The notes beneath the pieces are model-generated. The model was not told the origin of the DNA, made no database searches, and saw nothing but the letters and a program-made list of their open reading frames with translations. From positions 3,938,001 to 4,002,000 of the forward strand of contig NZ_CP054840.1 of NCBI RefSeq assembly GCF_013363755.1: a stretch of DNA of 64,000 bases. The letters are read 5' to 3'. The DNA comes from Comamonas antarctica. Lineage in GTDB: Bacteria; Pseudomonadota; Gammaproteobacteria; Burkholderiales; Burkholderiaceae_C. Below are positions 31,160 to 49,491 of this stretch, piece by piece; positions within the stretch are counted from its first letter, which is position 1; every line of letters starts with the position of its first letter. A program made the translations under genes and the position numbers.

Positions 31160-32011
31160 ATGAAACTGTTGATCGATGCAGAGCTGAAAACGCACACTGA
31201 CAAAAATGAACTAGTGCGCGACGTGCTGCCGGAGAATGTGAAAGGCTGCACAGTCGATTTGACCATTGGCGCAATCTTCATGCCGGGAAGTGAGGCTGGC
31301 ACGCTGGGATCGGCGACCAAGCCGCGGACTCAGTTGACGCTGATGCAAGGTGCTACGGCGGTGGTCAGCACGAACGAGGCCTTTTGCTTAGACGGCAGCC
31401 ATTCGGCGGTTGTGTTTCCTGCAAGCAGTGTTTCGCTTAAAGGCCTGCTGATGACAAATCCGGGACATGTGGACCCGAACTACCACGGGAGCCTGCACTT
31501 AACCGTGATAAATATGGGCAGTGAGCCTTATCCGTTAAAGACGGGCGACCGCCTGCTGCGCACGATGGTGTTTAAGCTGGACGGCTCTACCGCGAAGAAG
31601 GTTAGCAGTGCCAGTCCGTTGACTGAGGAACTACTGGCGAGGCTTTCCCCAGATTTTTTGGATGTGAACAAGCGTGTAGATGCCGCGGCCAAGAAGGCAA
31701 TTGACGCAGCAGATCGCCGCAACTTGCTGCGACAAGCAATGATGCCGGTGATAGTTGCTATCGTAACTGCTGTGCTCACTGTTGGATCAGGCTACCTTTC
31801 GTTGAAGGATAAGTTTGAAGAACGTATCGCGCGGATGGAAATTGCGAACAAGGACTTAAATGCCATTGTGAGGTTCGAGCAACTTGACTCCAAGCTGAGG
31901 CAGATTGGCGAGCTGACCCCGCCTGTACCGCTGGCGAAGCATATCGAGGAGTTGCGCGCCGAGATTGATGCTTTAAGGAAAGCGCAAAACGCGTCCCCGA
32001 AGAAGTTATGA
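31160..32011 (+). CDS. dUTPase/dCTP-deaminase-fold protein with C-terminal membrane helix and coiled coil
   Basis: A 283-residue two-part protein. Residues 1-145 match the trimeric dUTPase/dCTP deaminase fold, with PASSVSLKGLLMTNPGHVDP and YHGSLHLTVIN up to GDRLLRTMVF. The Asp of dUTPase motif 3 (GHVDPNYHG, Asp105) is kept, but the catalytic glutamate of dCTP deaminases (LEFYN context) is replaced by Thr. Residues 194-216 form a membrane helix, and 217-275 a likely coiled coil. A GAGGG ribosome site precedes the ATG. Its stop overlaps the ThyX-like start (ATGA). It may sense or bind a nucleotide at the membrane. No close described system is known to me. Confidence 0.7.
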   Translation: MKLLIDAELKTHTDKNELVRDVLPENVKGCTVDLTIGAIFMPGSEAGTLGSATKPRTQLTLMQGATAVVSTNEAFCLDGSHSAVVFPASSVSLKGLLMTNPGHVDPNYHGSLHLTVINMGSEPYPLKTGDRLLRTMVFKLDGSTAKKVSSASPLTEELLARLSPDFLDVNKRVDAAAKKAIDAADRRNLLRQAMMPVIVAIVTAVLTVGSGYLSLKDKFEERIARMEIANKDLNAIVRFEQLDSKLRQIGELTPPVPLAKHIEELRAEIDALRKAQNASPKKL

Positions 32012-32766
32012 AAATTTACCTGATAGCTGCCCCATGCCTCACCGGTGGCATGCAAGCCTTTCTTGACAATCGCCTCGAGAGTTGGCAGTACGACGAAAGT
32101 GCGTCAGACGCTGAGTTGCTTGTCGAAGCTGCAGGGCGCGTCTGCTACATGTCTTTTGGCGAGCGTCAGTTCCGTAAGCGAACGGGCGACTACCTAGCAA
32201 ATATCATGGCGCAAGGACACGATAGCGTGCTCGAACATGCGAACTTCACGCTGCTGGCTGACGGGATTTCGCGCGCACTGAGCCACCAGCTTGTAAGGCA
32301 TCGTGCGGGCTTTGCCTATAGTCAGCTTTCTCAGCAGTATCACGACGAGTCGGGTGCTGCCTTCGTCGAGCCAGCCGGGTTAGGTACGAATTTAGACGCA
32401 CAGCGCCTGTGGCGCGCGGCTAACGCATCTGCGCTTGAGGCTTACCGCGCGCTGTTGACTGAAGCGAATGATTTGGGGGGGAGCACACTGGATCAGAAAG
32501 AGCGAAAGCGCATGTTGCGGTCGGTGGCGCGTAGCGTGCTGCCCAATGCAACAGCAACCTCGCTGGTGGTGACTGGTAATGCGCGGGCTTGGCGCCATGT
32601 GCTCGCTGTGCGTGGCTGCATAGCCGGCGATCTGGAAATGCGGGGCTACTGCGTTGAGGTTCTGCGCGTACTCGGTGGTGCAGCACCTGCGCTTTTTGCC
32701 GACTTCTACATCGAGCAAGATGCTCATGGAGAACTTGTGCGACAACACGCCGATGCCGAAGTATGA
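32008..32766 (+). CDS. ThyX-like (flavin-dependent thymidylate synthase family) protein with altered signature
   Basis: A 252-residue protein of ThyX length and plan: GHDSVLEHANFTLLADGISR (residues 70-89) and the signature region RHRAGFAYSQLSQQY (97-111). Compared with the ThyX form RHRxFSYSQLSQRY it has one extra residue, Ala where the conserved Ser stands, and Gln for the final Arg. These residues contact dUMP or FAD in ThyX, so normal dTMP synthesis is questionable. It is coupled by ATGA overlaps to the dUTPase-fold gene before it and the NTPase after it. Possible roles are a modified nucleotide methyltransferase or a nucleotide sensor. Confidence 0.75.
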   Translation: MKIYLIAAPCLTGGMQAFLDNRLESWQYDESASDAELLVEAAGRVCYMSFGERQFRKRTGDYLANIMAQGHDSVLEHANFTLLADGISRALSHQLVRHRAGFAYSQLSQQYHDESGAAFVEPAGLGTNLDAQRLWRAANASALEAYRALLTEANDLGGSTLDQKERKRMLRSVARSVLPNATATSLVVTGNARAWRHVLAVRGCIAGDLEMRGYCVEVLRVLGGAAPALFADFYIEQDAHGELVRQHADAEV

Positions 32767-33365
32767 GTTCCTTAATGCTGAGTCCAGATGAACGAGCACA
32801 ACTCGCAAATGCCGTCGCAGTGGCACGGCCTTGCCCAACTCGCTGGTGCGTAATAACTGGAGCTCCCGGCAGTGGCAAGACCACTTTGGTCCGGTTGTTG
32901 AGCGCGCAAGGTTTGCCTGTTGTGGAAGATCCAGGACGAGCTATCCTGCAAGAGCGCCTCGCGCGCGGTATAGATGTCGACCGCACAGGCTCTAGCTACA
33001 TGCGCTTCCAACAAGAGGTGCTTGAACGCGAAAATGCGATGATCGCTTGCGCTGATCCGGGGCAGCGCGTGTTCTTTGACTATGGCATTGCCGAGTCGCT
33101 TGCGTTCATGAAGCTAGCGGGACTTCCCTGGTCCATGCATTTTGTCGATGCCGCGGCCGCGCTGCGGTTTGAGCGAGTGTTCCTGCTATCTCCGTTGTCC
33201 ATACAAAACTCTTTTGACGGCATTCGTGTTGAGACTGATGCGCAGCGTCAGAAATTGTGGATGCTGATCGGCGAGGTCTATCAAGCTCTCGGCATGCAAA
33301 TCGTCGATGTGCCGAACGGATCAGTGGCGCAGCGATTGGGCATGGTGCTCGCTGCGCTGACCTAG
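32763..33365 (+). CDS. P-loop NTPase/kinase (AAA_28-like)
   Basis: A 200-residue single-domain P-loop protein. Walker A is GAPGSGKT at 33-40, followed by VVEDPGRAIL (as in the NadR/AAA_28 kinase-like group), an aspartate-containing VFFDYGIAESL as Walker B, and the lid-like LSPLSIQNSFDGIRVETDAQ. It closes the three-gene coupled operon (ATGA overlap with the ThyX-like gene) and converges on the Mrr-type gene 40 bp away. It could phosphorylate a nucleotide or nucleoside handled by its partners. Confidence 0.75.
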   Translation: MSSLMLSPDERAQLANAVAVARPCPTRWCVITGAPGSGKTTLVRLLSAQGLPVVEDPGRAILQERLARGIDVDRTGSSYMRFQQEVLERENAMIACADPGQRVFFDYGIAESLAFMKLAGLPWSMHFVDAAAALRFERVFLLSPLSIQNSFDGIRVETDAQRQKLWMLIGEVYQALGMQIVDVPNGSVAQRLGMVLAALT

Positions 33366-33404: not shown

Positions 33405-34481
33405 CTAACATAGCGACTGGACGGTGTACGGAACTACGGGGGCAAGACCGGTTGTGTACAGAGACTTCAGTGCCGACAGGCGCGCCAGCGTCACTTCAAC
33501 CTTGGGCCTCATCTCAATCCATTGCTCCCGGCTCTTTTGCGGATCCGCAAGGAAGAGATAGGGGCCATCAATCAGTAGCCGCATGACCGCGGCTAGCGCA
33601 CGCCTGGGTTCGCCGCGACCGAGAGATGTCCTTAGGTCGTCCGCCGTTTTGCCTATGCGCTTCATATGAGTGAGAGCCTGTGCAAGGGATGCATCCAGTC
33701 TTTCGACGTCTGCGCCAGCGTCAAGAGCTGCCTCAGTCGCGTCAAGAAAGGACTTAACCGACGCAGTGAACTCACAAATCTTTGGTTGGACCAATAAAAG
33801 AGCACTCTGGCGTGTGCTATGAAGTTCGTCGAGGCACGCAGAGATCCGCGTAAAGCTTTGTTCTGCTCCTTCAATAAATGACGCACCGCTCTCATAGCGA
33901 CTGCCGATTGTGCCGACAATGAGTGGAAATTCGCCAGCTTGCGCGTGTGGCAACGCGATTGTCTTCAGTTCAAAAACGATGGACAGAAGGTCCAGCGGCG
34001 ACTCCTGACGCCCCACTCTTTCTGACTCGCCTGAATAGTCCGAGACGTCGAACTCATCGTAGATCCGTCGCTGAAGTAAGTGCAGTGAGCGCCCGAGTTG
34101 CGCTAGTTGCTGCTCCTCCATGTCCGGACGCGCGTGTTCGACTAGCTCGTCAAAGCTGGTGAGTGTGATGTTCGACTTCTGCGCGGCCCGAAGTGCGCCT
34201 GCCTGGAAGCCAGACTCCGACAGAAGAAAGGCACGGTCGGCGCCTACGTCGGTAGCAATCTGTGCTAATGCAAGCACTTTCTCCTTCGGGATTGCCGTAT
34301 TCCAGAGCTTGCACTCAACAATCCATAAGATTGCAACGCCGAACATCGTTCGCGTCGCGACCACGTCGACTGCGTGTACAGCTCTTGCGCCCACGACATC
34401 GCCTTCGATATGTACCGCAAACCCAAGGGCGCGAAACAGATCTGCCACCTTCTCCTGATACACGCGCCAGGGTACCGACAT
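33405..34481 (-). CDS. Mrr-type restriction endonuclease-like protein
   Basis: A 358-residue protein with an N-terminal Mrr_cat PD-(D/E)xK nuclease domain: WRVYQEKVADLFRALGFAV, the Asp in HAVDVVATR, and IVECKLW (E-x-K) near residues 53-58, then GFQAGALRAAQKSNITL. The C-terminal 230 residues are alpha-helical and not recognised, perhaps a target-sensing region. Mrr nucleases cut modified DNA in other systems; here the substrate is unknown. AAGGA lies just before the ATG. The IS66 derivative inserted only about 50 bp upstream of its start. Confidence 0.75.
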   Translation of the reverse strand: MSVPWRVYQEKVADLFRALGFAVHIEGDVVGARAVHAVDVVATRTMFGVAILWIVECKLWNTAIPKEKVLALAQIATDVGADRAFLLSESGFQAGALRAAQKSNITLTSFDELVEHARPDMEEQQLAQLGRSLHLLQRRIYDEFDVSDYSGESERVGRQESPLDLLSIVFELKTIALPHAQAGEFPLIVGTIGSRYESGASFIEGAEQSFTRISACLDELHSTRQSALLLVQPKICEFTASVKSFLDATEAALDAGADVERLDASLAQALTHMKRIGKTADDLRTSLGRGEPRRALAAVMRLLIDGPYLFLADPQKSREQWIEMRPKVEVTLARLSALKSLYTTGLAPVVPYTVQSLC

Positions 34482-35983: not shown

Positions 35984-37876
35984 ATGCGAAAAAAAGCGCA
36001 TAGCGGTCTGCGACTCCATCATTGGAAATACAGGACCAAGATACCCATCAGCCTGCCAACGTTCACACTCGTGTTTCCCATTTCTCGCATTCCATCCCGC
36101 AAGACAATAGATCTCTCAAACTCCCTACCTCTACCAAGAGACACGGACTATGTAGTGCTTTGGTACGGCGCAAACGCCCGACCACGAAGTGCAGGCGATG
36201 TTCCCACCGTCTACGTGTGGTTCCGCCCTCTATATCGAGACGAGCAATTTGGGAAATGGGTGCCCCAAAGAATGGCGGCCACATTCCTAGGCCAGCTGCG
36301 AATTGGATCAATCTGGCGCAACGGGATTTCTACGCATGAGCTAGAGTTCGCCGAGTTCTGCTATACCGGCTCGTATACGCGAAGCCAGTGGGAAGACATC
36401 GTCTGGGAGCAGAAGCAGCGAGGCCTGATTCCTCCAGATCGCTATCCCCTACCTTACGCACACAATGATCAAAGTCGACTGCTGCGTTTGCATGCCGAGG
36501 GAAAAGCATTGCTCGTCCCGTGCATGGAGTTTTTCACACGCTGTTATGCGCGCTCAAGTGAAGTGAACCGGATCTTGTTGACCTATGGAGCAGAGGAACA
36601 AGACGAGCGGTTGATGCTTCGAGAGTCTATCGACAGCGTGCCTGGCGCGAGGCCGATCTGGATTCCTCCGTACACAACGGACGCAGACGCGCACTTTCTG
36701 GCTCAACTTCGCTACGACGCAGAGATGTCCAAGAAGCTCAAGGATTTTTCTGCACAGCTTGATCAAGAGCTCCTAGCCTCGAAAAATAATGTGGCCTTTT
36801 TGGCGTTCGGCCCTTGGTACTACGGGCCAGCAAAACTCAAAGTTCAGGGGGTACCCCTGAACAATGGCGACTTCTTAGCTCTGCGTATCGTGGGTTATTC
36901 GCTACCCGAAGACTATCCTGTTCATGCGCTGCGTGTACACAAGGAAACAGACACCGAAGGTGAGCTTTCTCGCTTTCCAAGGCCGCGCCGCGAGGTTCAT
37001 GAGATTGCCGAAGGCCAAACCATTGCAGCTACTCAGGAGTTGGGAGCGGACCAGGATACCGACATCCATGTGGTCAACGATCCAGGCATAGAAATTCTGA
37101 ACACGCCTGCGCCAGTGACCACGGAAACCGTCAGACGGGATCGCAATGGCAGAACAATTCGAACACCGTCCGCCCCCAGCAGTTGCAGCGCTCCAGGCGA
37201 GGCTGGCGGCACGGGAAAGGGCGTGGCTAGCTTACAGGTGAAATCGGAGGTGAGCTCCCCTTCAGAAGGCGCAGTTCATGCACTTTGGGCCGGTTTGGTT
37301 TACTTGCAAGAAGCCAACCTAGGGCTTATTCGCTCAGTAGCCTGGTGCACGCCAAGCTATACATTCCGGAGTCCACCCGACCCTCCAGAAACCGGCTTTA
37401 GGCTACCTAATCTCAAGTCACCCAGACGGCTGCAAGAGATTCGCAAGACACGTGCATGGCTCCATCGATCCGGACTCTCTTCCGCCAGGTCAGTTTTTGT
37501 CTTTCGCATCCAAACACCGCGTTTCACAGGCTATTTTTTTGAAGTGCAGCGCGCCGTGCGCGAGGGAAAAAAAGACAACGGAGCGACAGAATTCGTAGAA
37601 GACAGTTACTGCGGCTTGGTGGCAATCCCAAAGGATAACGGTGATCTCTCGAGATGGTTAGACGCCATTTTCGAAGCTATCAGCTGGCAATGCGGAATAA
37701 TGAAAAATGTTTTGCCTCACATCAAAAGCATAACTTCCTATCAGGCCTATTACCAGAGAACCAAGCGCGACGGGGACACGCTAGAAGGCCAAGCAACGGC
37801 CTTCAATGCGCTGAGCAAGTTGGGAATAATTAATTTGAAATATTCAAAAATAGATGGTATACACGATGTTGGATAA
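35984..37876 (+). CDS. Large hypothetical protein with TnsE-like features (tentative)
   Basis: A 630-residue protein without an assigned domain. Several segments recall TnsE of Tn7 in the same order: VPTVYVWFRPLYRDEQFGKW near 75 (TnsE has a comparable VWFNP...RKW), a mid region FLAFGPWYYGPAKLKVQG near 280, a variable linker of about 100 residues rich in Thr/Pro/Glu, and a C-terminal FTGYFFEVQRAVREG with GDLSRWLDAIFEAI. TnsE steers Tn7 to replicating DNA and beta clamp. The gene is far from tnsABC and on the other strand. The resemblance was judged by eye, so an unrelated cargo protein is possible. No ribosome site supports the start at 35984. Confidence 0.4.
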   Translation: MRKKAHSGLRLHHWKYRTKIPISLPTFTLVFPISRIPSRKTIDLSNSLPLPRDTDYVVLWYGANARPRSAGDVPTVYVWFRPLYRDEQFGKWVPQRMAATFLGQLRIGSIWRNGISTHELEFAEFCYTGSYTRSQWEDIVWEQKQRGLIPPDRYPLPYAHNDQSRLLRLHAEGKALLVPCMEFFTRCYARSSEVNRILLTYGAEEQDERLMLRESIDSVPGARPIWIPPYTTDADAHFLAQLRYDAEMSKKLKDFSAQLDQELLASKNNVAFLAFGPWYYGPAKLKVQGVPLNNGDFLALRIVGYSLPEDYPVHALRVHKETDTEGELSRFPRPRREVHEIAEGQTIAATQELGADQDTDIHVVNDPGIEILNTPAPVTTETVRRDRNGRTIRTPSAPSSCSAPGEAGGTGKGVASLQVKSEVSSPSEGAVHALWAGLVYLQEANLGLIRSVAWCTPSYTFRSPPDPPETGFRLPNLKSPRRLQEIRKTRAWLHRSGLSSARSVFVFRIQTPRFTGYFFEVQRAVREGKKDNGATEFVEDSYCGLVAIPKDNGDLSRWLDAIFEAISWQCGIMKNVLPHIKSITSYQAYYQRTKRDGDTLEGQATAFNALSKLGIINLKYSKIDGIHDVG

Positions 37877-37964
37877 ATGTTATCCGCACATCGGATCGTA
37901 GAATTTTCGTCAACACAAACCACTCGAAACAAGCTAGTATCAGAACATTACAAAGGAGATAAAT

Positions 37965-38294
37965 ATGTCTGGCTCTAGTGGTGGTGGTGGTGGCAGCATA
38001 GTGGACGATGATCAAATCGCCTGCCATTTGTTGAAGTTTGAAACGCGCATTACGTCTCCGAATGCGGTAGTACTCGTAATGTTGTCTGTAGGAAAGCAGT
38101 TGAACATTCAAATCGCTGCAGGATCCACGGCTCAGGAAATCCAGGTTGTGACCTCCGAGGGGCAGATCGTTGGTGGTTTGCTGCACAACAAGGCGCAGCG
38201 TTTGCGTGAATGTCTGCTCGCTCAAACGAGCTACAAAGCGACGGTACGATCGATCAACAATGGTCAAGTAGACGTGTTCGTGGAGCCCGTCTGA
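37965..38294 (+). CDS. Small protein with glycine-rich N-terminus, first gene of the QueC-like operon
   Basis: A 109-residue protein beginning MSGSSGGGGGSIVDDDQIA, followed by about 85 residues with a beta-rich pattern (VVLVMLSVGKQLNIQI, EIQVVTSEGQIVGGLL, KATVRSINNGQVDVFVE). An excellent ribosome site (AAGGAG, 6 bp spacing) shows that it is strongly translated. Its TGA overlaps the next ATG (TGATG). A flexible glycine/serine tail on a small folded domain next to a QueC-like enzyme recalls QatB-type partners, whose N-termini I recall being modified by the QueC homologue. The protein itself is not recognised. Confidence 0.75.
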   Translation: MSGSSGGGGGSIVDDDQIACHLLKFETRITSPNAVVLVMLSVGKQLNIQIAAGSTAQEIQVVTSEGQIVGGLLHNKAQRLRECLLAQTSYKATVRSINNGQVDVFVEPV

Positions 38295-39517
38295 TGGCCA
38301 TTCATGTTGTCGGGGGCTTTTACGAAGAGCGATGCACGCGGCCTGCATGGAGTCACACGTTTGGTTCTGGTGGGCGCGCGGCGGCTGCCATTGCAACCTA
38401 TGGCACCGAGGTGATTTTTCACACCTACACCAGTCCTAAGTCCCAGCGCTATCTCGAGATGGTTGCGGCGGCATACAAGCTGGATATCCAAACCAACAGC
38501 ATCGAACGGGCGGTCGCGTTCTCCTACCTGCACGATTTAGCGAACCCTCACATCGCCCATGTTCCGCCTGCCCCATCGAGGGCAGCGCCACTGCAGATCC
38601 AGCAAGACAACGTGGTGCGCTTCGGCATGCTGGAAGGCAATGCGATCGTGCAGGCACAGTGGGCCGTATATGACCCCCAGAACCAGGAAGCACCTGTGGC
38701 GTTTGGCGCCAATGGCTCCCACGCAAAGCACCTAGCCCTCGTGCTCAATAGCTGGGAAGCCCAGCAGATGGCAGGGCTTCCAGAAGGCGATGCTCAGACT
38801 TGTGCTTGCAAGATCGCGCAAGAGCAACATGCCGAAGTCGTGATTATCAAACAGGGCGCGCAAGGCGCCCTGGTGTGGGCAAATCAACGCGCTACCCAGG
38901 TCCCCGCCTACCGCACCCAGAATGTGTGGAAGATCGGCTCTGGCGACTGCTTTGTGGCCTACTTTGCACAGGCATGGATGGAGCAAAAACTCGCTCCCAC
39001 GGTTGCCGCCGACTTCGCCTCTCGCGCAACGGCCTACTACGTCGATACCAAGGGGTTCGCCACACCTGAGACCCTGGAGACAGCGCATTACCCGCCGATC
39101 TCACCCAAAAATCGCCAACTACCCGTCGTACCTAAGAAGGTGTATCTGGCAGGACCATTTTTTCACCTCGGCCAGATTTGGTTGATCGAACAGGCGCGCA
39201 CGCTGCTGCAAAGCACTGGCTTGCAGGTGATCTCCCCCTTTCACGACATCGGTCTGGGAACTGCAGAAGATGTGGTCCCTCTGGACATCCAGGCCATCAA
39301 AGACTGCGACCTGGTGTTTGCAGCCGTCGATGGATTAGACCCCGGGACAATCTTCGAGCTCGGCTATGCTCGCAGCCTCGACAAGCCCGTCGTGATCTAC
39401 AGCGAGGTCCAGGTCGGCACCGAAAGCCTCAAGATGATGCAAGGCACCGGATGCGAGATCTACGCGAACTTCACCACCGCAATTTACGCCACCCGCTGGA
39501 GGGCCGTGGAATCATGA
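38294..39517 (+). CDS. Fusion of PfkB-type kinase and nucleoside 2-deoxyribosyltransferase domains
   Basis: A 407-residue two-domain protein. Residues 1-265 follow the PfkB/ribokinase plan, beginning AIHVVGGFYEE, with KQGAQGALVW near 187 and the anion-hole motif IGSGDCFVAYFAQA (GSGD at 215-218). Residues 280-407 are a nucleoside 2-deoxyribosyltransferase (KVYLAGPFFHLGQIWLIEQA, catalytic Glu355 in GTIFELGYAR). It could phosphorylate a nucleoside and split or exchange its base. The start overlaps the small protein's stop by one base, and its end overlaps queC-like by four, so all are translated together. Both catalytic signatures look intact. Confidence 0.85.
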   Translation: MAIHVVGGFYEERCTRPAWSHTFGSGGRAAAAIATYGTEVIFHTYTSPKSQRYLEMVAAAYKLDIQTNSIERAVAFSYLHDLANPHIAHVPPAPSRAAPLQIQQDNVVRFGMLEGNAIVQAQWAVYDPQNQEAPVAFGANGSHAKHLALVLNSWEAQQMAGLPEGDAQTCACKIAQEQHAEVVIIKQGAQGALVWANQRATQVPAYRTQNVWKIGSGDCFVAYFAQAWMEQKLAPTVAADFASRATAYYVDTKGFATPETLETAHYPPISPKNRQLPVVPKKVYLAGPFFHLGQIWLIEQARTLLQSTGLQVISPFHDIGLGTAEDVVPLDIQAIKDCDLVFAAVDGLDPGTIFELGYARSLDKPVVIYSEVQVGTESLKMMQGTGCEIYANFTTAIYATRWRAVES

Positions 39518-40110
39518 AAACTGCACTGCTACTGTCTGGCGGCATGGACTCCCTGGCGATTGCATGGTGGAAGCGACCAGACGTCGCGATCACCCTTGAC
39601 TACGGCCAGAAGGCCGCAGAGGCTGAGAAAAGGGCATCTGCTGCTGTGTGCACTCAACTGGGCATTGAGCACCACATCGTGCGCATCGACTGCAGCTCCC
39701 TGGGTTCTGGCGATATGGCGAATGCAGCACCGGATGCCGCAGCGCCGGCCAGCGACTGGTGGCCGTACCGCAACCAGATGCTGCTCACCTTCGTCGCGAT
39801 GAAGTGCATTGGGCTTGGGGTCAAAAAATTGCTTATAGGCACGGTGCGCTCCGATGGCAGCCACATCGACGGTACACCTGAATTCGTCCACCTGATGGAT
39901 CAGTTGCTGAGCATGCAAGAAGGTGGACTGCGGGTCGAGGCCCCGGCCATTGACCTGTCGACAGCAGAACTCATCCAGCAATCGGCATTGCCTGCTGACA
40001 TGCTCGCCTGGGCGCACAGCTGCCATAAGGCCAACACGCCGTGCTGGAACTGCCGGGGGTGCAACAAGTATCGGGAGACCTATGACGAGGTCAGTGCCAG
40101 CATGGCTTGA
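39514..40110 (+). CDS. QueC-like 7-cyano-7-deazaguanine synthase family enzyme
   Basis: A 198-residue PP-loop ATP pyrophosphatase. The PP-loop is LLSGGMDS (6-13), the substrate-site loop is WWPYRNQ (82-88; QueC proper has a PGRN loop), and four zinc cysteines lie at 170, 177, 180 and 183 (SCHKANTPCWNCRGCNKY). QueC makes preQ0 for queuosine, but no queD, queE or folE is near. QueC-like enzymes of type IV CBASS and Qat are reported to join a deazaguanine base to the N-terminus of a partner protein. Operon position suggests such a role here with the glycine-rich protein. Confidence 0.85.
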   Translation: MKTALLLSGGMDSLAIAWWKRPDVAITLDYGQKAAEAEKRASAAVCTQLGIEHHIVRIDCSSLGSGDMANAAPDAAAPASDWWPYRNQMLLTFVAMKCIGLGVKKLLIGTVRSDGSHIDGTPEFVHLMDQLLSMQEGGLRVEAPAIDLSTAELIQQSALPADMLAWAHSCHKANTPCWNCRGCNKYRETYDEVSASMA

Positions 40111-40780
40111 TCTAGGCAATCCACAGCCCAAGCAGCAACTGACGGCTTACACACCCATCCAATGGTTCGGCCAGCGCATTGCGCTGCCAGCCACGGGGAC
40201 TGCCAGGGCCCCCCATCTGGCCGCCGTGCTTGCAGCCCGGCGTTCGCGCAGAGACTTCGCAGCACCTGCCACATTGGACGACCTGGCGGCCATGCTCGAG
40301 CTGTGTTGCCGAACGCGCGAACTACAAGCCAGCGATCTAGGCTTTGATCTAGAGTTCCGTCCGCACCCCTCGGCTGGGGCCATCCACAGCGTACACACCC
40401 TGGTCCAGCGCGAGATCGACGAAGACTGGATGTACTACGACGCGCAAGCTCATCAGTTAGTGTCGCTGCCCGGTACATCCGCCGTAGCCAACGTTGCCCG
40501 CAATGCAGCCGATGAACTCGTGCCTGCCACCAACGCTTCCCTGATCGCCCTGGTGGCAGAACCGGACAAGGCCGCGGCAAAGTACAAGAGCCCAGGCAGC
40601 CTGATCTGGCGAGACGCCGGCGTGCTCTTGGGCTACTTCAGCATCTGCGCCGAAGCGCTGGCTCTCTCATTTTGCCCACTGGGAATCACTGGGCAACCTA
40701 TGCTTGGTCGAGACTTAGATGAGCAGGGACGTTTGTGCGGGGTTGGCATGGCGCTGCTTGGGCGCACGCACCTTGGTTGA
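40082..40780 (+). CDS. SagB-type/nitroreductase-family flavoprotein
   Basis: A 232-residue FMN-binding nitroreductase-fold protein: LAAVLAARRSRRDFAAPATL near 48-67, HPSAGAIHSVHTLVQ near 108, and IWRDAGVLLGYFSICAEALA near 176, the usual dimer-interface helix. It overlaps the QueC-like gene by 29 bp, so it belongs to the same operon. It may oxidise or reduce the intermediate made by its partners, by analogy with azoline oxidases or nitrile reduction. Its 3' end overlaps the convergent OGG-type gene by 66 bp. Confidence 0.75.
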   Translation: MTRSVPAWLDLGNPQPKQQLTAYTPIQWFGQRIALPATGTARAPHLAAVLAARRSRRDFAAPATLDDLAAMLELCCRTRELQASDLGFDLEFRPHPSAGAIHSVHTLVQREIDEDWMYYDAQAHQLVSLPGTSAVANVARNAADELVPATNASLIALVAEPDKAAAKYKSPGSLIWRDAGVLLGYFSICAEALALSFCPLGITGQPMLGRDLDEQGRLCGVGMALLGRTHLG

Positions 40781-41551
40781 CCCGCTCGTCGCTGGCAGTT
40801 TGTTGCCCAACATCACCTGTATGGACAGCGGCGATCGGGCCATCTCGAACCAGATCACAGCATCCAGCTCGGAGGCACGCACACCCATACGTTTACTGAG
40901 CGCGAGGAACAGCTCTTCCAGAGCAAAGTAATGGCGCTCGACGGTCAGGTTCTTGGGGAAAAGGCCAATCGCCACGCCCACTCGCAGGATGTGAATATCC
41001 AGGATAGCGACATCGTCGGCGCGCAGCCAGTTGCGCGCCACCCAAGAGGCGGTCTTAGGCCCAATCCCGTTAAGCTCCAGCAACCAATCGCGCAGGGCTC
41101 TGCCTGACTGTAAAGGTGCGTCGCCCTTTGCCAACCGCTGGAGCGCTTCGCTGACATAGCGAGCTTTTTGCTTAGCAAAACGATACCGCACCGCACGCCC
41201 ATGGACGGTTAGCGGCTCTTCGAGCAATGTCAACAGCTCCCCTTCGGTAGGCGTGTCGGCCAGCACATCTCGCTCGCGCATACGCTCAAACGCGGCAATG
41301 CCCACAGCAGCCGGAATGCCATGCCCTCCCAGCAAGCAAGCCGCCACCTCCTCGGCCAGCGTATGCCCGAGCTTGTACTCTGGTGGGCCGCCCAACACAC
41401 GCTTGGACATCACCTGGTACGCCCAATAGGCAGGGGTAGGGAAGCCCTCCACGCGTCCCCAAGGCACGCCTGGCAGCAGCAATTCGCTTGCGGGCGGTAG
41501 CTCCAATTGCATGACCCCGACGGGGCCCAATATCGCGGCTGTTTGCATCAC
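40715..41551 (-). CDS. OGG-type HhH-GPD DNA glycosylase
   Basis: A 278-residue base-excision glycosylase of the OGG group. The helix-hairpin-helix is LNGIGPKTASWVARNWL (160-176) with the likely catalytic Lys166, and the essential aspartate is Asp185 in VAILDIHILRVG. The N-terminal 110 residues are divergent from housekeeping Ogg proteins. OGG-like proteins of this sort occur beside QueC- and TGT-like genes in type IV CBASS. It is coupled to the methylase upstream (ATGA overlap) and converges on the nitroreductase with overlapping ends. Confidence 0.8.
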   Translation of the reverse strand: MMQTAAILGPVGVMQLELPPASELLLPGVPWGRVEGFPTPAYWAYQVMSKRVLGGPPEYKLGHTLAEEVAACLLGGHGIPAAVGIAAFERMRERDVLADTPTEGELLTLLEEPLTVHGRAVRYRFAKQKARYVSEALQRLAKGDAPLQSGRALRDWLLELNGIGPKTASWVARNWLRADDVAILDIHILRVGVAIGLFPKNLTVERHYFALEELFLALSKRMGVRASELDAVIWFEMARSPLSIQVMLGNKLPATSGSTKVRAPKQRHANPAQTSLLI

Positions 41552-42240
41552 GCCACCTCGCCTGTGTTAAACGAATACTCTTCGCGCAGCCACTGCATGA
41601 ATGCGGCGCGCTCCACCGCATTCATGGAGATCACCTTGGACTGCAAACGTTGCAGCCGCCGCTTGGTGGTCTGGCGCTCCCGGAAGTTGTCCCCCAGATA
41701 CCTTGCATCATGCAGTTCAGTGGGCGGCTCGTAGTTGAACCATAGGCATTCCTCGCGAATGCCGCGGTGGGTCGCAGCCTCAAATTTCTTGCAGTTCCAG
41801 CCCTCAAGCATCTCATCGTACATAGGATGCGCATAGCCGGAAATGAGCACTTTGCAGGACAGATTTTTGAGCACCTTGAGCAGCTGAACGTGGTCATCCT
41901 GGGTGTAGTCATGGCGGTACACCCGCGACTGCCGACGCGTAGCGGGGTGGTAGGGAGGATCGCAGTACACGAGCTCTTCCCCAGTGAACGCATAGCTGCG
42001 CAGAAAGTCCTCGGCCTTGCCCTGCACCAGCTCGGCCGGCATTTGCGGCGAGTCCTTCCAAGCAGCAATCACGTGCTCATCCAGTTCGATGGCAATGCTG
42101 CGTTGCGCCGGCCTTTTGTTGCGTAGCACCGCACCGCCGCCCAGGTGCGTCTCGATATAAACGTTGTGCGGAGGCATGAGATTGAGCACGTGCTGGAATG
42201 TGCGGCCTTTGCCACCTGGATACTTCATGCGCCAAATCAT
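41548..42240 (-). CDS. Dam-type (D12 class) DNA adenine N6-methyltransferase
   Basis: A 230-residue class D12 methylase: MKYPGGKG near the N-terminus (SAM-binding motif I region), IETHLGGGAVL, the acidic AIELDEHVIAAW, and the catalytic YCDPPYHPATRR near 98-110. It is shorter than Dam (278 residues) because the target-recognition part is reduced. An in-frame TTG lies eight codons upstream. It is coupled to the OGG gene. A miniature IS66 derivative lies about 100 bp upstream and may affect its promoter. It could mark host DNA or supply the substrate for the adjacent glycosylase. Confidence 0.85.
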   Translation of the reverse strand: MIWRMKYPGGKGRTFQHVLNLMPPHNVYIETHLGGGAVLRNKRPAQRSIAIELDEHVIAAWKDSPQMPAELVQGKAEDFLRSYAFTGEELVYCDPPYHPATRRQSRVYRHDYTQDDHVQLLKVLKNLSCKVLISGYAHPMYDEMLEGWNCKKFEAATHRGIREECLWFNYEPPTELHDARYLGDNFRERQTTKRRLQRLQSKVISMNAVERAAFMQWLREEYSFNTGEVA

Positions 42241-42341
42241 CGTCAAATCTGACGATGAAGTCAAATGCTTTCAACGCGCGGCCACCCCAGTTGTTGCTCA
42301 GATGCCCGCGTCATTGGGTTACATCGCCAAATCGAACGTGC

Positions 42342-42626: not shown

Positions 42627-44042
42627 TTATATTGGAACGAATAACGATGCAGCACTGCCAAACAGCCGGTTGTAGAACTCAACCGCATAGCGGTCTGTCA
42701 TCCCTGCTACGAAGTCGCAAATTACGCGCTTCTGCTCTTTTTCCGTCTTGAGAAGTTCAACCACGGTCTTGACGTCTTGTGGCAGAAGGTTGTGGTTTTT
42801 AGCCAGCGTATCAAAGAGCTTCGTGACGATCTCCTCGCCGCGATGCTCAACGACCTTCAAACGCGGCGACATGATCATCGACAGATACGTAAGGTGCTTA
42901 AGAGCCTCAATCTTCAGACGAATGTCCCTCCTCACTTCGATTTTCGCCATCGCCATGTTTGCATCAGCCTTCACGCTGATGCCCATCATGAACTCATGCA
43001 CCAAACGCGAAGACATCTGCGTACGAACATGGGAGTTTTCAGCCACTCGGCAAGAAAGCTGATAAGTGTCGATATCACGATCCTGCGCGCCCTCGGACAC
43101 AGGTGGGGAGTAGCCCACAGCCTCCATCAAAGCCCTCAAAATTTCCTGCTCGGTTACATCGTTGATGACGTGCTTGATCTTCTCGTGGAGCTTGCGCAGG
43201 AAAAGACTCTGGTGAGCTCGACTGATCATGTCCAACGGAGTGGTGAATCCTGCCTTCATCGCATCTTCTAGGTCATAAGTCGAATATGCGATGTCATCCG
43301 CGATGTCCATGATCTGGCATTCAAGGGTCTTGAACTCTCCTTCAAAGCCAAGCGCGACATGCTTCTTGATGTTGGCAACGATGTCCGCCTCTGAGTCGTA
43401 GTATCCCTTGCACAACTTGTCTTCAACTGCACGCTCTGGTGGGATCTTGCTGTCGTACTTCAAGATCGACGCGAGCGAGCGATACGTCAAATTGAGCCCT
43501 AGCCTTCCGTCCGATCCATCTTCGTCTATCCCAAGGACAAAGGCCGGATTGAGGTTTTCTTTGTAGACCTTGCGCTCCACCTTGGTCAGGATCCGAAGGG
43601 TTTGTGCATTTCCCTCGAAACCGCCAAACGGCTTCATGCATGCATCGAGCGCACGTTCTCCGTTGTGCCCGAAAGGGGGATGCCCCAGGTCATGAGCCAA
43701 GCCGGCAAACTCCACCAGATCCACGTCAATTGCACCGTGCTGCCGAATGACTACGTCATTAGCATTCAGGTACTGCGCAATACCTTTGGCAATCTGAGCA
43801 ACTTCCAGAGAATGAGTCAGACGGTTTCGGAAAAAATCAGACTCCGAACCAGGAAACAGTTGTGTTTTTCCTTGCAACCGGCGGAACGATGGGGAGTGCA
43901 GCAAACGTCCGTAGTCACGCCGATACGGCGTTCTCCCCAACATTTCTTTTTCCTCTTCTGGCCGAAGTCGTGCGGTATCTTTCTCTGTATACATGTAAGG
44001 CAGAAACAAAAAAGCCACCCTTCGGATGGCTTGTTGGGACAT
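42627..44042 (-). CDS. dgt: dGTP triphosphohydrolase (HD family)
   Basis: A 471-residue HD-domain enzyme that splits dGTP to deoxyguanosine and triphosphate. The hallmarks are YRRDYGRLLHSPSFRRLQGK then QLFPGSESDFFRNRLTHSLE, the metal set with FAGLAHDLGHPPFGHNGERA, and the distal Asp in IMDIADDIAYSTYDLED. The start at 44042 overlaps the 65-residue gene's stop (TGATG), implying coupling. The family usually begins at MYTEKDTARL, i.e. at the ATG at 43994. dGTPases act as anti-phage dNTP-depletion enzymes in other bacteria, and this copy is cargo of a transposon. Confidence 0.88.
   Translation of the reverse strand: MSQQAIRRVAFLFLPYMYTEKDTARLRPEEEKEMLGRTPYRRDYGRLLHSPSFRRLQGKTQLFPGSESDFFRNRLTHSLEVAQIAKGIAQYLNANDVVIRQHGAIDVDLVEFAGLAHDLGHPPFGHNGERALDACMKPFGGFEGNAQTLRILTKVERKVYKENLNPAFVLGIDEDGSDGRLGLNLTYRSLASILKYDSKIPPERAVEDKLCKGYYDSEADIVANIKKHVALGFEGEFKTLECQIMDIADDIAYSTYDLEDAMKAGFTTPLDMISRAHQSLFLRKLHEKIKHVINDVTEQEILRALMEAVGYSPPVSEGAQDRDIDTYQLSCRVAENSHVRTQMSSRLVHEFMMGISVKADANMAMAKIEVRRDIRLKIEALKHLTYLSMIMSPRLKVVEHRGEEIVTKLFDTLAKNHNLLPQDVKTVVELLKTEKEQKRVICDFVAGMTDRYAVEFYNRLFGSAASLFVPI
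44005..44032 (-). terminator. Terminator-like hairpin inside the dgt leader
   Basis: On the minus strand AAGCCATCC-GAAG-GGTGGCTT followed by TTTTTGTTT. It begins 10 nt after the stop of the 65-residue gene and ends just before the dgt ATG at 43994. Ribosomes re-initiating at TGATG would cover it, so it may be an attenuator. Confidence 0.65.
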
Positions 44043-44239
44043 CAAGCCGTTGCGGGCGCACGCGCGCGGGCTTGGACTGTTGCGCTAGTTCGTCGGTTCT
44101 TTGTCTCGGGCTGCGGCAGCTGACCACGAGCGTCTTGGAAAGTACGCTGCAGCTCCACGTTGACTGTGACTTGACCGTTGTACATGTCGCGCTTAACAGC
44201 GGCTCGTACTTCAGCAAAGATGACTTGGTCAAACGGCAT
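44042..44239 (-). CDS. 65-residue hypothetical protein coupled to dgt
   Basis: MPFDQVIFAEVRAAVKRDMY followed by NGQVTVNVELQRTFQDARGQ and a basic, Ala/Thr-rich tail. AGGAG lies 6 bp upstream of the ATG, which makes real translation likely. Its stop overlaps a start for dgt (TGATG), and a terminator-like hairpin follows at once. It could be a leader or regulator of dgt, or a small partner. The 44240-44481 stretch between it and the divergent gene is the shared promoter region. Confidence 0.6.
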   Translation of the reverse strand: MPFDQVIFAEVRAAVKRDMYNGQVTVNVELQRTFQDARGQLPQPETKNRRTSATVQARARAPATA

Positions 44240-46218: not shown

Positions 46219-47615
46219 AAAACCTGCCCTCCCATGTGTAGCTCATCTCCACTTGGCAACAGGGCCCGCTTCGCAGTTTTAATAATCTCCTGTGCCTGGC
46301 GTTTGCTTAGACGATGGAAGTACCGCAATGCGGCTACGTCCCACTGCATCCGGCTCTTGGGGTCACGCCGACTGGAATTTGCGATTTCGGAAAGCTGGGT
46401 CCCTAGCTTTTCCCGGGCGTCCGCCACTGCATGCGATGGAATTTGGCGCGCCAGGAGCTCGATGGCATAGCGGGCTTTTAAAAATCCAAGGAACGTTGAT
46501 GTCGCTGCTCGTTGACCAGGCGCGCGACGGAGCATGTCGTTCAACGCGGCTTGGTTGGGCATCGCCGCTCCCTCGGGCGATGTAGCAAACAACAAGCTGA
46601 CAGCAGGGCGTAGCGCCATTCGCATGGTCCGAGGCTTGATCTTTCCAGCCTTCATACGTGCATGGAGCTCATCGAAGAAGGCATGGAGCACAGCCTCTGC
46701 CACCGAGCCTGCAGGTAGGCTTTGCATAAGCTTCCGCGATGTCTGGATCTCCGCATTGGCTTGCTTTGCCTCCGGTGTCAACGCCAGCGCATGTTGGTCT
46801 TGCAACCACCGCATTGGTAACTCGTACTTGCGCAGCCTGGCAGTCCCGAACACCCGCAGCACAAAGGCATCGTCCCAGACGGCATTGGGGTGCTGGTCCA
46901 GCGTGGTGAAAAACTCCGCATGCCGGACCAATGCCAAGCACAGTCGCTTGGCATTAGTGTGTACAACTGCCCAACGCACATACGAGGAAAAGGCCTGATG
47001 CACGAGCTCACAGCTAAACAACTCCGTCAGCTGCCCCCCATTGAGCTCGCATCGCCCCTTCCAGTAGCAGGCCTCGCAACGGCCATTACGTCCAGGCTCA
47101 ACCGGTGCTTGGCACACATGGCAGGCGGTATAGGGCTCGCTTTCGCATTTACGGCAAATCCAGGCGCCATCACTGCGCGCCGTACAGGGTCGGTGACGAC
47201 GACACACACCACAGGTCTTGTTGTTGAAGCCTTTACACTGCAGGCAGACGACCGCTTGGTCTGGTGCCGAGCGCGAATACTTGCGGACGAGGTTGTTGCA
47301 TATGCTGCAGCGCTGCGACTCTCGGAAGTACACGTAGCAGGAGTTGCAAACGGGTCCCTGAGGCAACATCAACCCCAGCGCACGCCCGCTGCGGTGGCAT
47401 CGAACACACGGGCGCGCAGCTGCGCATTTGCGGCATTGGGCCGCAGGATCGCTTGCAAGCAAACGGCTTGGGATTCCGCATCCTGGGCATGGTCCTTTTT
47501 TGAAGCAGCGTGCATAGCAAGTCGAGCAGTAGTGCCGGCCGTTTTCTATCCGAGAGAATTTGGACACAAGGCGTCCGCACTCATTGCACTCGTACTGTGC
47601 ACTCTCCAATTCCAT
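46182..47615 (-). CDS. TniE-position protein with six tandem zinc ribbons
   Basis: A 477-residue protein. Residues about 8-195 carry twelve CxxC pairs (CNEC, CSTC, CPGC, CRKC, CVRC, CNSC, CSIC, CLQC, CGVC, CRKC, CHVC, CEAC), which fit six zinc ribbons in a row. The C-terminal 280 residues are alpha-helical, basic and unassigned. The ATG at 47615 overlaps the tniQ stop (TGATG). By position it corresponds to tniE of the AbaR/Tn6022 group. Likely role: DNA binding at the target or at transposon ends; this is inference. Confidence 0.7.
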   Translation of the reverse strand: MELESAQYECNECGRLVSKFSRIENGRHYCSTCYARCFKKGPCPGCGIPSRLLASDPAAQCRKCAAARPCVRCHRSGRALGLMLPQGPVCNSCYVYFRESQRCSICNNLVRKYSRSAPDQAVVCLQCKGFNNKTCGVCRRHRPCTARSDGAWICRKCESEPYTACHVCQAPVEPGRNGRCEACYWKGRCELNGGQLTELFSCELVHQAFSSYVRWAVVHTNAKRLCLALVRHAEFFTTLDQHPNAVWDDAFVLRVFGTARLRKYELPMRWLQDQHALALTPEAKQANAEIQTSRKLMQSLPAGSVAEAVLHAFFDELHARMKAGKIKPRTMRMALRPAVSLLFATSPEGAAMPNQAALNDMLRRAPGQRAATSTFLGFLKARYAIELLARQIPSHAVADAREKLGTQLSEIANSSRRDPKSRMQWDVAALRYFHRLSKRQAQEIIKTAKRALLPSGDELHMGGQVFWVPHPPWTVAS

Positions 47616-48574
47616 CACCACCGGCGATTCCTTCGCAGCCAACGTTCCCAGTCTGCCTGAACAAGCTCTTTAGAAACCGGAATGGGCGATTCTCCTGCCT
47701 TTCTCGATGCACGGACCGCGCCTGGTAGCCCAGCTGCACCGGCCGACTTTGAAGCCGCATCTACCCGCAGTATCGTGATGAAGCTGCACAGCCGCGCCTC
47801 ACGCTCGCGGGGCGATTGCATCTCCAGCAGCAAGTTATTCGGCCGAAGTGCAGGCTCCTGAAAATCTGCGCGTACGACTATGCAGCGCGAAGGCGCCAAC
47901 ATACCGCGCATGCGGCGAAACCAATCCACGCCAGAAACGGCACCGCCGTCCCATAACCCCTCACCGACGGACAACACTTCCATCGCCCTCCGCTGAAATG
48001 CCATGGCATCCACCTCCGCCAAGGGAGGCACATACCTGCGCATGTCCCGCCCACAGGCCGAACACCGTGCCAAGTTTGGCAGCTTGCTGATGCAGAGATG
48101 AGGTGCAATCAGCGCGTGGCAGTAGGGGCATCGGTCGATCAGACGTGTGCCATGGACCTCGCAGCCCACGACAAAGGCCAAGCGCCAGGCACGCCGAAAA
48201 AACGGCTCTGGATCGCTGGCAAGGCACTGGGGACAGCACGGCAAGCCTGCGTAGCGCTGCCGGTTGCGGTTGCCCAAGGCAGTGATCCAAGGCACGACTG
48301 GACGGCTCCGCGCGGAAACTCCAGCAAGACGATCTACCAGCCCCCCAAGCGTAGCCGCATGCACGGCATCAGGTTCACATCCAAACCACGCGGCGGCGTG
48401 CATTGCCCGCGATGCGGTCAGCCCACGGTCCGCATCGATCGTCCACATCCGCCATTTGGGCCAAATCGCCCCGGTCAATGTCAGGGGGTCACACCCGCTA
48501 TGCAAAGCAACTCTAGCCAGCCAAGACGAAAGCAGTTCGTCCTTATAGGGCTGTTGCCAGGAAGCATTGCTCAT
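47615..48574 (-). CDS. tniQ: TniQ/TnsD family target-selection protein
   Basis: A 319-residue TniQ-domain protein: the N-terminal YKDELLSSWLARVALHSGCD, then zinc-binding clusters CCPQC, GCEVHGTRLIDRCPYC and CSACG. The C-terminal third has no clear DNA-binding domain, so it is a short TniQ rather than a full TnsD. In Tn7 relatives this protein binds the attachment site and recruits TnsC; here the site would be comM. It overlaps tnsC by four bases. Confidence 0.88.
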   Translation of the reverse strand: MSNASWQQPYKDELLSSWLARVALHSGCDPLTLTGAIWPKWRMWTIDADRGLTASRAMHAAAWFGCEPDAVHAATLGGLVDRLAGVSARSRPVVPWITALGNRNRQRYAGLPCCPQCLASDPEPFFRRAWRLAFVVGCEVHGTRLIDRCPYCHALIAPHLCISKLPNLARCSACGRDMRRYVPPLAEVDAMAFQRRAMEVLSVGEGLWDGGAVSGVDWFRRMRGMLAPSRCIVVRADFQEPALRPNNLLLEMQSPREREARLCSFITILRVDAASKSAGAAGLPGAVRASRKAGESPIPVSKELVQADWERWLRRNRRW

Positions 48575-49491
48575 GGCTGGACTTCACGAATGCCTTTGGT
48601 CGGTTTGACCCACACCTTAGAGGCCACGATCTCCCGTGTGATGCACTCTTGCCCAGACTGGATGGCGACCTTGCTGCACTCGATAAGCAGTCGGTGCAGA
48701 TCCCCAAGATTGCCTTCGCTGATGTCATACAAAAGTGTGGCTATCTCTGGGCTCGCGAGACCTGAGGGTTTTTTCAATGGAAGCACGCTTTCAAATCCAG
48801 CCAACAACGTCTGGAACTCAGGATCAAGCTTCCACAGCGGGAGCGAATACACATCGAACCGACTGGCATGCTGCGGATCTGAATGCAGCACGCGCACCGC
48901 GTCTCTAGTGCCCACACAAACAATCGGAATGCGCAGTTCATTGCATAGCATCTTGATCGTGTTCATCACGGCTCGCAGCTTGGCCGATGGTCCCACCAAT
49001 AGCGAGTGGATTTCGTCGATGATCAGTATTTCGGCGTGGCATAGGCGCAAGCGCGAGATGGCGTCGTACCGCAGTTCCGTCACGGTGCCATTCTTTTTGT
49101 ATGGTGACCAGAACTGGCTGAGGATGGACACATACAGCCCTTTTTCATCGGCCGACGGGGGTGACTCGGCAATGATGACTGGGCGAATGCTGTGCGAATC
49201 CTCGCTGACGTAGCCCTCACCGTGCAGCTCCATGAAACGCTCGATGATTTTGGTTTTCCCGTTGTTGGAGTCGCCCACAACCAGCATATTGCGCATGCGA
49301 GGGACCTTGGGCATACGCATGAGGGCGGCCATATCATCGAGGATCAGCTTGGCACGTGCGTAACCAATCCAGCGGGGTTCGAGCAAGAAACGAATCCGCT
49401 CCTCCGGGCCCAAGTCCAGCGCCGTGCGAAAGCTCTCATGGATGTGCGTGGCCTCAGGCGCGGCGCTTGGCTCTAATTCCATCTTGGTCAT
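48571..49491 (-). CDS. tnsC: TnsC/TniB AAA+ ATPase
   Basis: A 306-residue transposition regulator of the TniB type. Walker A is VVGDSNNGKT (71-80), Walker B is ILIIDEIHSLL near 145, followed by sensor motifs CVGTRDAVRVL and the FDVYSLPLWKLDPEF region of TniB. TnsC polymerises on target DNA with ATP and passes the choice of site to TnsA/TnsB. It is joined to tnsB and tniQ by ATGA overlaps on both sides. Confidence 0.93.
   Translation of the reverse strand: MTKMELEPSAAPEATHIHESFRTALDLGPEERIRFLLEPRWIGYARAKLILDDMAALMRMPKVPRMRNMLVVGDSNNGKTKIIERFMELHGEGYVSEDSHSIRPVIIAESPPSADEKGLYVSILSQFWSPYKKNGTVTELRYDAISRLRLCHAEILIIDEIHSLLVGPSAKLRAVMNTIKMLCNELRIPIVCVGTRDAVRVLHSDPQHASRFDVYSLPLWKLDPEFQTLLAGFESVLPLKKPSGLASPEIATLLYDISEGNLGDLHRLLIECSKVAIQSGQECITREIVASKVWVKPTKGIREVQP

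Follow-up and report, generated by a model that had tools for sequence, protein, structure and literature searches.

A QueC-like enzyme, a tailed protein of predicted HIRAN fold and a kinase-deoxyribosyltransferase as the core of a likely nucleobase-tagging phage defence system

What could a cell use a second QueC-type enzyme for, when genes for queuosine synthesis are present elsewhere in its genome? The question is raised by a stretch of 64,000 nucleotides from Comamonas antarctica (assembly GCF_013363755.1, NZ_CP054840.1, positions 3,938,001 to 4,002,000; hereafter the window), in which three consecutive genes, here called B, C and D, encode a small tailed protein, a kinase fused to a nucleoside deoxyribosyltransferase and a QueC-like enzyme. 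The answer that we favour is that B-C-D forms an anti-phage core in which D is probably an ATP-dependent enzyme that attaches a 7-deazaguanine base to B, at the N-terminal residue of its flexible tail, and the system is likely to represent a third nucleobase-tagging phage defence. Our belief is strongest for tail conjugation by D, then for the defence role, then for transglycosylation and last for an oxazole. The features concerned are:

37952..37958, forward strand: Shine-Dalgarno-like AAAGGAG upstream of B, read from the sequence
37965..38294, forward strand: B, 109 amino acids, flexible tail and predicted HIRAN fold, proposed conjugation substrate (B in 100/100 loci; AlphaFold2 (AF2) model)
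37968..38024, forward strand: residues 2-20 of B, Gly/Ser-rich low-confidence tail with Ser2-Gly3-Ser4 (sequence, AF2 model)
38025..38291, forward strand: residues 21-109 of B, predicted HIRAN fold (structure model)
38294..39517, forward strand: C, PfkB kinase fused to nucleoside 2-deoxyribosyltransferase (Pfam, survey of loci)
38945..38947, forward strand: Asp218 of C, in the PfkB G[ST]GD motif (motif in 100/100 loci)
39356..39358, forward strand: Glu355 of C, deoxyribosyltransferase nucleophile position (motif in 100/100 loci)
39514..40110, forward strand: D, QueC-like PP-loop enzyme, 198 amino acids, cluster 4 of PF06508 (Pfam, motifs)
39862..39870, forward strand: His117-Ile118-Asp119 of D, aligned to Tyr115/Asp117 of Cap9 (alignment)

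Related loci were fetched by their match to C alone, from 20 of 37 matching plasmid records, 8 viral contigs, 2 loci of whole genomes, the window itself and 80 genome loci kept out of at least 305 relatives; of these 111 loci, 100 distinct ones were left after setting aside 7 duplicates and 4 loci of a TIR type described below. All of them were then searched with gene profiles that had been made from a few of the loci and taken through one iteration. In this sample selected on C, B and D were each present in 100/100 loci, with B-C-D in the same order in all 100, and were accompanied by F (89/100) and E (82/100) and, less frequently, by G (42/100), a dGTPase (16/100) or Mrr (6/100); two of the 18 loci without E stop too close to a contig edge (L032, L079). 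The eight profiles (B to G, dGTPase and Mrr) each matched 0/40 background windows of 15.2 kb placed away from the system in system-carrying genomes. The genes that a first-pass annotation had grouped into a QueC-type system do, then, co-occur in homologous loci. Judged by sequence, B-C-D is a conserved core with intact catalytic motifs, a tail motif and exchangeable neighbours. In the window the further genes are:

40082..40780, forward strand: E, ThcOx-like flavin mononucleotide (FMN) oxidase homologue (NCBIfam, predicted fold)
40715..41551, reverse strand: F, OGG-type glycosylase/apurinic-apyrimidinic lyase homologue (Pfam, motifs)
41548..42264, reverse strand: G, D12/Dam-type adenine methylase, accessory (Pfam, 42/100 loci)
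42627..44045, reverse strand: dGTPase homologue, recurrent neighbour and possible partner (near 16/100 loci)

The six genes B to G and the overlaps listed for them earlier were all found on the sequence: C starts within a TGATG at 38294 that overlaps the end of B, D starts at 39514 via an ATGA (4-bp overlap with C), E at 40082 overlaps D by 29 bp, the 3' ends of E (40780) and F (40715) overlap by 66 bp, and F and G share 4 bp (41548-41551), although the TTG annotated for G may lie upstream of its true start, since relatives begin near MKYPGGKG. The dGTPase beside them was absent from that annotation. Library scans of the window proteins covered the ten genes between 32763 and 44045, where Pfam matched C to PfkB (6e-11) and Nuc_deoxyrib_tr (8e-17), D to QueC (5e-24), F to Ogg-HhH (3e-15) and G to MethyltransfD12 (3e-10); the B of the window had no Pfam or PADLOC match, and Rfam and tRNA scans of the window found nothing.

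The chemistry of D is suggested by its residues. Of the catalytic core of Cap9 it has SGGxDS, RN, the guanine-reading Asp and the zinc Cys, with His in place of the guanine-reading Tyr, and its profile scores QueC (2pg3) and Cap9 (9nto) almost equally. In Cap9, Tyr115 stacks on deazaguanine and Asp117 reads it (PMC13279940). SGGxDS occurs in 100/100 loci and HxDG in 96/100, while the cluster 4 signature CH(x)5CxxCxGCxK is present in the window and in 97/100 loci, and YG[QH](x)5E, found in 99/100, has a spacing of five vs the YGQ(x)6E printed for cluster 4. The pairing of this cluster of PF06508 with a PfkB-deoxyribosyltransferase was published in July 2026 (PMC13329287), and the D of the window likewise adjoins such a protein; the 100 loci were chosen on C and hence provide no test of this neighbour feature. 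By the Cys signature and this neighbour in the window, D belongs to QueC-family cluster 4 as described there. The host has separate canonical QueC, QueD-type and QueE genes, so D is not its queuosine enzyme; that role was considered and rejected, and the alternative of a queuosine-type pathway relying on this QueC, raised by the first-pass annotation, does not apply here.

For cluster 4, PMC13329287 proposes purine salvage and notes helix-turn-helix (HTH) neighbours. In our sample one HTH-like family adjoins 19 loci (annotated as HTH in L017) and another 6 (by reading of the sequences); by position and reading, the neighbour families found in at least 5 loci comprise HTH, transposition and recombination genes and one family mostly of the TIR-type loci. 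A salvage operon for purines or deazapurines, in which D makes the base and C converts it to a nucleotide, would match the PfkB and deoxyribosyltransferase chemistry, and in two lineages genes for a Vut_1 transporter lie next to the system, yet we give it little credence because the spread is patchy (3/369 genomes of the host's class, the window's own counted), the carriers include plasmids, prophage-like loci and one Tn7-like element, the partners include AriA-AriB, Mrr, FRG and OGG, and B would be left unexplained. The hosts of this rare system nevertheless span Pseudomonadota, Bacteroidota, Verrucomicrobiota, Myxococcota, Thermodesulfobacteriota, Spirochaetota, Melainabacteria, one cyanobacterium and haloarchaea; C had no match in the phage records searched.

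Protein B is the probable conjugation substrate, the part that the first-pass annotation inferred for it along with a role in defence, and both suggestions are supported here as probable, the second from genomic context. Its N-terminus is mostly MSGS or MSGG, with Gly3 in 80/81, and Gly and Ser make up 59% of residues 2-15 vs 16% of the last 80, in a set of 108 entries that includes duplicates and a few doubtful starts. The partners of the two known defence QueC enzymes start with MGGS and MGTS (PMC13279940). What the first-pass annotation called a Gly-rich small protein thus has a Gly/Ser-rich tail, and the rest is a predicted HIRAN fold. The AF2 model (mean pLDDT, predicted local distance difference test, 87.9) matches HIRAN by fold comparison only, sequence profiles against solved structures giving no match, and the sole sequence-level HIRAN signal is in the Halorubrum B (Pfam, 0.011, under cut-off). 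Going by the model, B is predicted to have this DNA-binding fold; binding of DNA 3' ends by HIRAN is known for HLTF and not for Rad5 (PMC7804152). The haloarchaeal B proteins are long (211-362 amino acids; L012, L018, L020), and that of L012 appears by eye to contain two HIRAN-like units after an acidic linker.

If D tags B, what is C for? Its G[ST]GD motif is found in 100/100 loci (91 by pattern and 9 with a preceding Leu) and includes Asp218, which from knowledge of the PfkB family we take to be the catalytic base; the deoxyribosyltransferase Glu motif, in which Glu355 is presumably the nucleophile, is found in 100/100 loci vs 0/4 TIR-type loci. These four (L013, L021, L022, L034) have an operon of PfkB, TIR-TGT (TGT, tRNA-guanine transglycosylase), OGG, QueC and TIR, in which C lacks the deoxyribosyltransferase motifs (0/4) while F and D are kept. 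The TIR-TGT fusion is found in 4/4 by a single-sequence profile, and in L013 its TGT part scores 0.0014 in Pfam, under cut-off, and 1.8e-22 in PADLOC. The last TIR protein, ThsB-like in L013, has a start giving MGG in 4/4, and may therefore be an effector switched by N-terminal deazaguanylation. In the type IV cyclic oligonucleotide-based antiphage signalling system (CBASS), the modified N-terminus is bound by Cap10, a member of the TGT family (PMC11996544), and we infer that deoxyribosyltransferase and TGT could be alternative partners for a tethered base.

Alternatively, C and the neighbouring dGTPases could be the working enzymes, C stripping or swapping the bases of phage deoxynucleosides and the dGTPase draining dGTP, with B and D as regulators. 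The intact motifs of C in 100/100 loci, the dGTPase near 16/100 and the known fusions of deoxyribosyltransferase domains to Abi-type domains (PMC3710099) are consistent with this, but we consider it unlikely, since no dGTPase was found near 84/100 loci, C is accompanied by B and D in all 100, and there would be no need for a QueC or for a tailed protein that looks like a substrate.

In our preferred reading, conjugation of B by D, a role for E has also to be found. The first-pass annotation called E a nitroreductase, and Pfam Nitroreductase does come just under cut-off (3e-4); its best score is with the SagB-family dehydrogenase of NCBIfam (1e-12, also under that model's cut-off), and comparison of the predicted model places it closest to ThcOx, with BmdC and McbC lower in the list, which points to a predicted azoline-oxidase fold. 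The Tyr of a Lys-Tyr pair, presumably the pair typical of SagB/ThcOx azoline oxidases, is found in 89/89. Azoline dehydrogenases act after ATP-dependent cyclodehydratases (PMC4603692), and with a tail rich in Gly and Ser it could be argued that no nucleobase is involved, D cyclodehydrating Ser/Thr-Gly of the tail and E oxidizing it to azoles, as in ribosomally synthesized and post-translationally modified peptides (RiPPs). This seems quite improbable to us: the zinc site and the Asp that reads guanine are both retained in D, no YcaO match (Pfam or NCBIfam) was found in the ten window genes scanned, and 18/100 loci are without E, including the two cut by a contig end.

Where present, E comes after D, with F and sometimes G. 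Among the 16 loci without E that have enough sequence past D, 8 hold another candidate partner: a dGTPase in L010, Mrr in L011 and L015, AriA-AriB in L100 and, by homology, in L112, where a dGTPase homologue closes the B-C-D-AriA-AriB operon, and, in L031, L104 and L106, a further, diverged B-C pair downstream of D and then FRG. The other 8 have no recognised partner, and 2 of them adjoin a phage CI repressor (L029, L030). The AriA-AriB homologues lie inside the operon at 8810-10722 in L100 and at 8794-12024 in L112 (dGTPase homologue included), and L031 also has a predicted pPIWI-associating nuclease gene after its second B-C pair. F, a putative DNA-base sensor in the first-pass annotation, is retained in the Mrr and FRG loci; across the sample it has the hairpin Lys in 88/89 and the catalytic-Asp motif in 89/89 (85 by pattern and 4 with Ile). 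G has DPPY in 42/42, so that the catalytic motifs which had been called intact in the window are conserved in C, D, F and G alike; its D12 family stands, and its place in the system is that of a sub-clade part, the idea of a core methylase being rejected. Defence systems show this kind of exchange of partners around a constant core, and this genomic context makes a defence role for B-C-D likely.

The following sequence of events would be compatible with these enzymes. First, 7-carboxy-7-deazaguanine would be adenylated by D and then attacked by the amine at the N-terminus of B from which Met has been removed, as in Cap9. In loci with E and with Ser or Thr as residue 2, D could activate the amide again, like QueC en route to the nitrile, the side-chain hydroxyl would attack to form an oxazoline, and E would oxidize this to an oxazole. 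dGTPases release deoxyguanosine, and the deoxyribosyltransferase half of C could place 2'-deoxyribose on the tethered base from a donor deoxynucleoside such as this one, after which the kinase half would phosphorylate it to give a protein ending in a deoxynucleotide. The tagged HIRAN protein might then bind to the DNA ends or the stalled replication intermediates of phages and so signal to the partner genes (E/F/G, AriA-AriB, dGTPase, Mrr or FRG). A bolder version, possible but in our view rather unlikely, is that a ribosomally made protein comes to have a nucleotide as its N-terminus: besides joining a 7-deazaguanine to Ser2/Thr2, D would serve as the cyclodehydratase, E would form the oxazole, and C would assemble on it a 2'-deoxynucleoside with a 5'-phosphate, so that B would carry a covalent mimic of a DNA 3' end, which a HIRAN pocket of B itself or of a neighbour would hold until the ends of phage DNA take its place and the effector module is set free.

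Several observations weigh against conjugation and the steps built on it. D has a His at the position of the stacking Tyr of Cap9; HIRAN is a predicted fold for B, matched at 12-14% identity, and in the window this protein has no Pfam match; and most loci have Ser instead of Gly at residue 2. E occupies a slot used elsewhere by effector-like genes and may thus be an effector and not a tailoring enzyme, many alphaproteobacterial E proteins lack the Lys of the Lys-Tyr pair, and in 2 E-bearing loci (L037, L110) E sits by a second copy upstream, away from the main D. Residue 2 of B and the presence of E are associated (Fisher, 8e-6), but a test of independent pairs cannot reach significance, the 6 loci that combine Gly or Cys at residue 2 with the absence of E require about two origins, and Ser2 without E in ten loci means that Ser2 does not require E; a significant link is not upheld and the association is suggestive only. 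The supply of the base is a further difficulty. Canonical QueC is over cut-off in 38/46 of the system-carrying genomes examined (46 out of 80) and not in the other 8/46; in the 16 genomes searched for the other genes, 8 without and 8 with QueC, QueE was matched in 4/8 and 8/8 and QueD-type genes in 7/8 and 7/8, respectively. Four hosts (a metagenome-assembled genome, a 2.9-Mb draft, Ramlibacter and Microvirga) had neither a QueC over cut-off nor a QueE match, and the base may therefore come from import or be something other than carboxydeazaguanine. A Vut_1 gene is present in two of these hosts (G391, G406), and in Microvirga (L102, G406) it lies directly upstream of the system; in the other two (G369, G372) there was no Vut_1 gene and no base source was found. 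We take E. coli YhhQ to be a member of the Vut_1 family. YhhQ has been linked to preQ0 transport (PMC5372724).

How does the system compare with those already known? By likely chemistry it resembles type IV CBASS conjugation, as both have a QueC-type ligase in which the ATP site and the Asp that reads guanine agree, a partner protein whose N-terminus is a flexible Gly/Ser stretch, and a transglycosylase-type partner; an OGG-like accessory protein is reportedly also part of type IV CBASS. By the features tested, however, it belongs neither to CBASS nor to Qat, in agreement with the first-pass annotation: the ten window genes scanned contain no CD-NTase, Cap10-type TGT, QatA ATPase or QatD TatD nuclease (the scan for CD-NTase did not extend to the neighbour families of at least 5 loci, and TGT is present in the TIR-type L013). 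Unlike in CBASS, the partner is a predicted HIRAN protein with mostly an MSG start, a deoxyribosyltransferase-kinase replaces TGT, and there is an additional azoline-oxidase-like enzyme. Qat also has a small protein with an N-terminal motif beside a QueC-family enzyme, but D, with 198 amino acids, lacks the extensions of QatC (about 400 amino acids, with a Thr pair; PMC13329287, PMC13279940), has HxDG and keeps the Asp, whereas QatC lost the equivalents of both Tyr and Asp, and QatB is helical (PMC13279940) where B is predicted to be HIRAN. With cluster 4, for which PMC13329287 infers purine salvage, it shares the Cys signature and the PfkB-deoxyribosyltransferase neighbour. Azole RiPP systems (ThcOx, McbC) share the SagB-type FMN oxidase and the Gly/Ser-rich polypeptide, but the YcaO cyclodehydratase of TOMM RiPP clusters was not found in the window genes scanned, the ATP enzyme here is a QueC, and B is probably not a secreted peptide. 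As for PARIS, two Bacteroidota loci have homologues of AriA-AriB downstream of B-C-D and none was found in the ten window genes; to our knowledge PARIS also occurs without B-C-D. The literature search, to which subscription papers were mostly inaccessible, found no description of the whole gene set among the matches listed, and the main text of PMC13329287, compared apart from its supplementary neighbour table, does not mention 'nitroreductase', 'HIRAN', 'SagB' or 'DNA glycosylase'. The system itself is real, and the gene pair at its centre has already been described in part, the cluster 4 and PfkB-deoxyribosyltransferase pairing being known (PMC13329287).

If our reading is correct, nucleobase-protein conjugation would be a modular principle of prokaryotic immunity and not an oddity of CBASS, with CD-NTase, QatB, TIR and HIRAN proteins each paired with a ligase. 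A QueC cluster so far without an assigned role would gain a function open to test, a YcaO-free route to a nucleobase-azole-protein linkage would be suggested, and the deoxyribosyltransferase, dGTPase and OGG-type glycosylase of defence islands would all be linked to a single tagged protein whose predicted fold is a DNA-binding one. Ser/Thr2 with the oxidase and Gly2 without it offer a natural contrast for such tests.

To the right of the system lies a Tn7-like set of TniQ (47615-48574), TniB (48571-49491), a transposase (49488-51509; weak rve and Mu C-terminal matches) and TnsA (51448-52140). Relatives of the TniB are near 9 loci and of the transposase near 8, the window counted, which suggests that a transposon may carry the system as cargo; no convincing inverted repeats were found when sought as transposon ends. 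The upstream gene at 35984-37876 (630 amino acids, no family match) was rejected as a part of the system, having a relative before B in L083 and thus occurring in 2/100 loci only, the window and L083. Its relatives are on plasmids of Acinetobacter, Halomonas, Methylobacter and Pseudomonas; none of the 15 listed of 16 such plasmid records is among the 37 matching C, nor is the one other genome with a relative (G158) among the genomes matching C. Further upstream, consecutive genes for a dCTP deaminase-like protein, ThyX and AAA_28 (31160-33365) form a second nucleotide-metabolism set beside the system, and an Mrr-type nuclease gene (33405-34481) is similar to the Mrr gene that follows D in L011 and L015.

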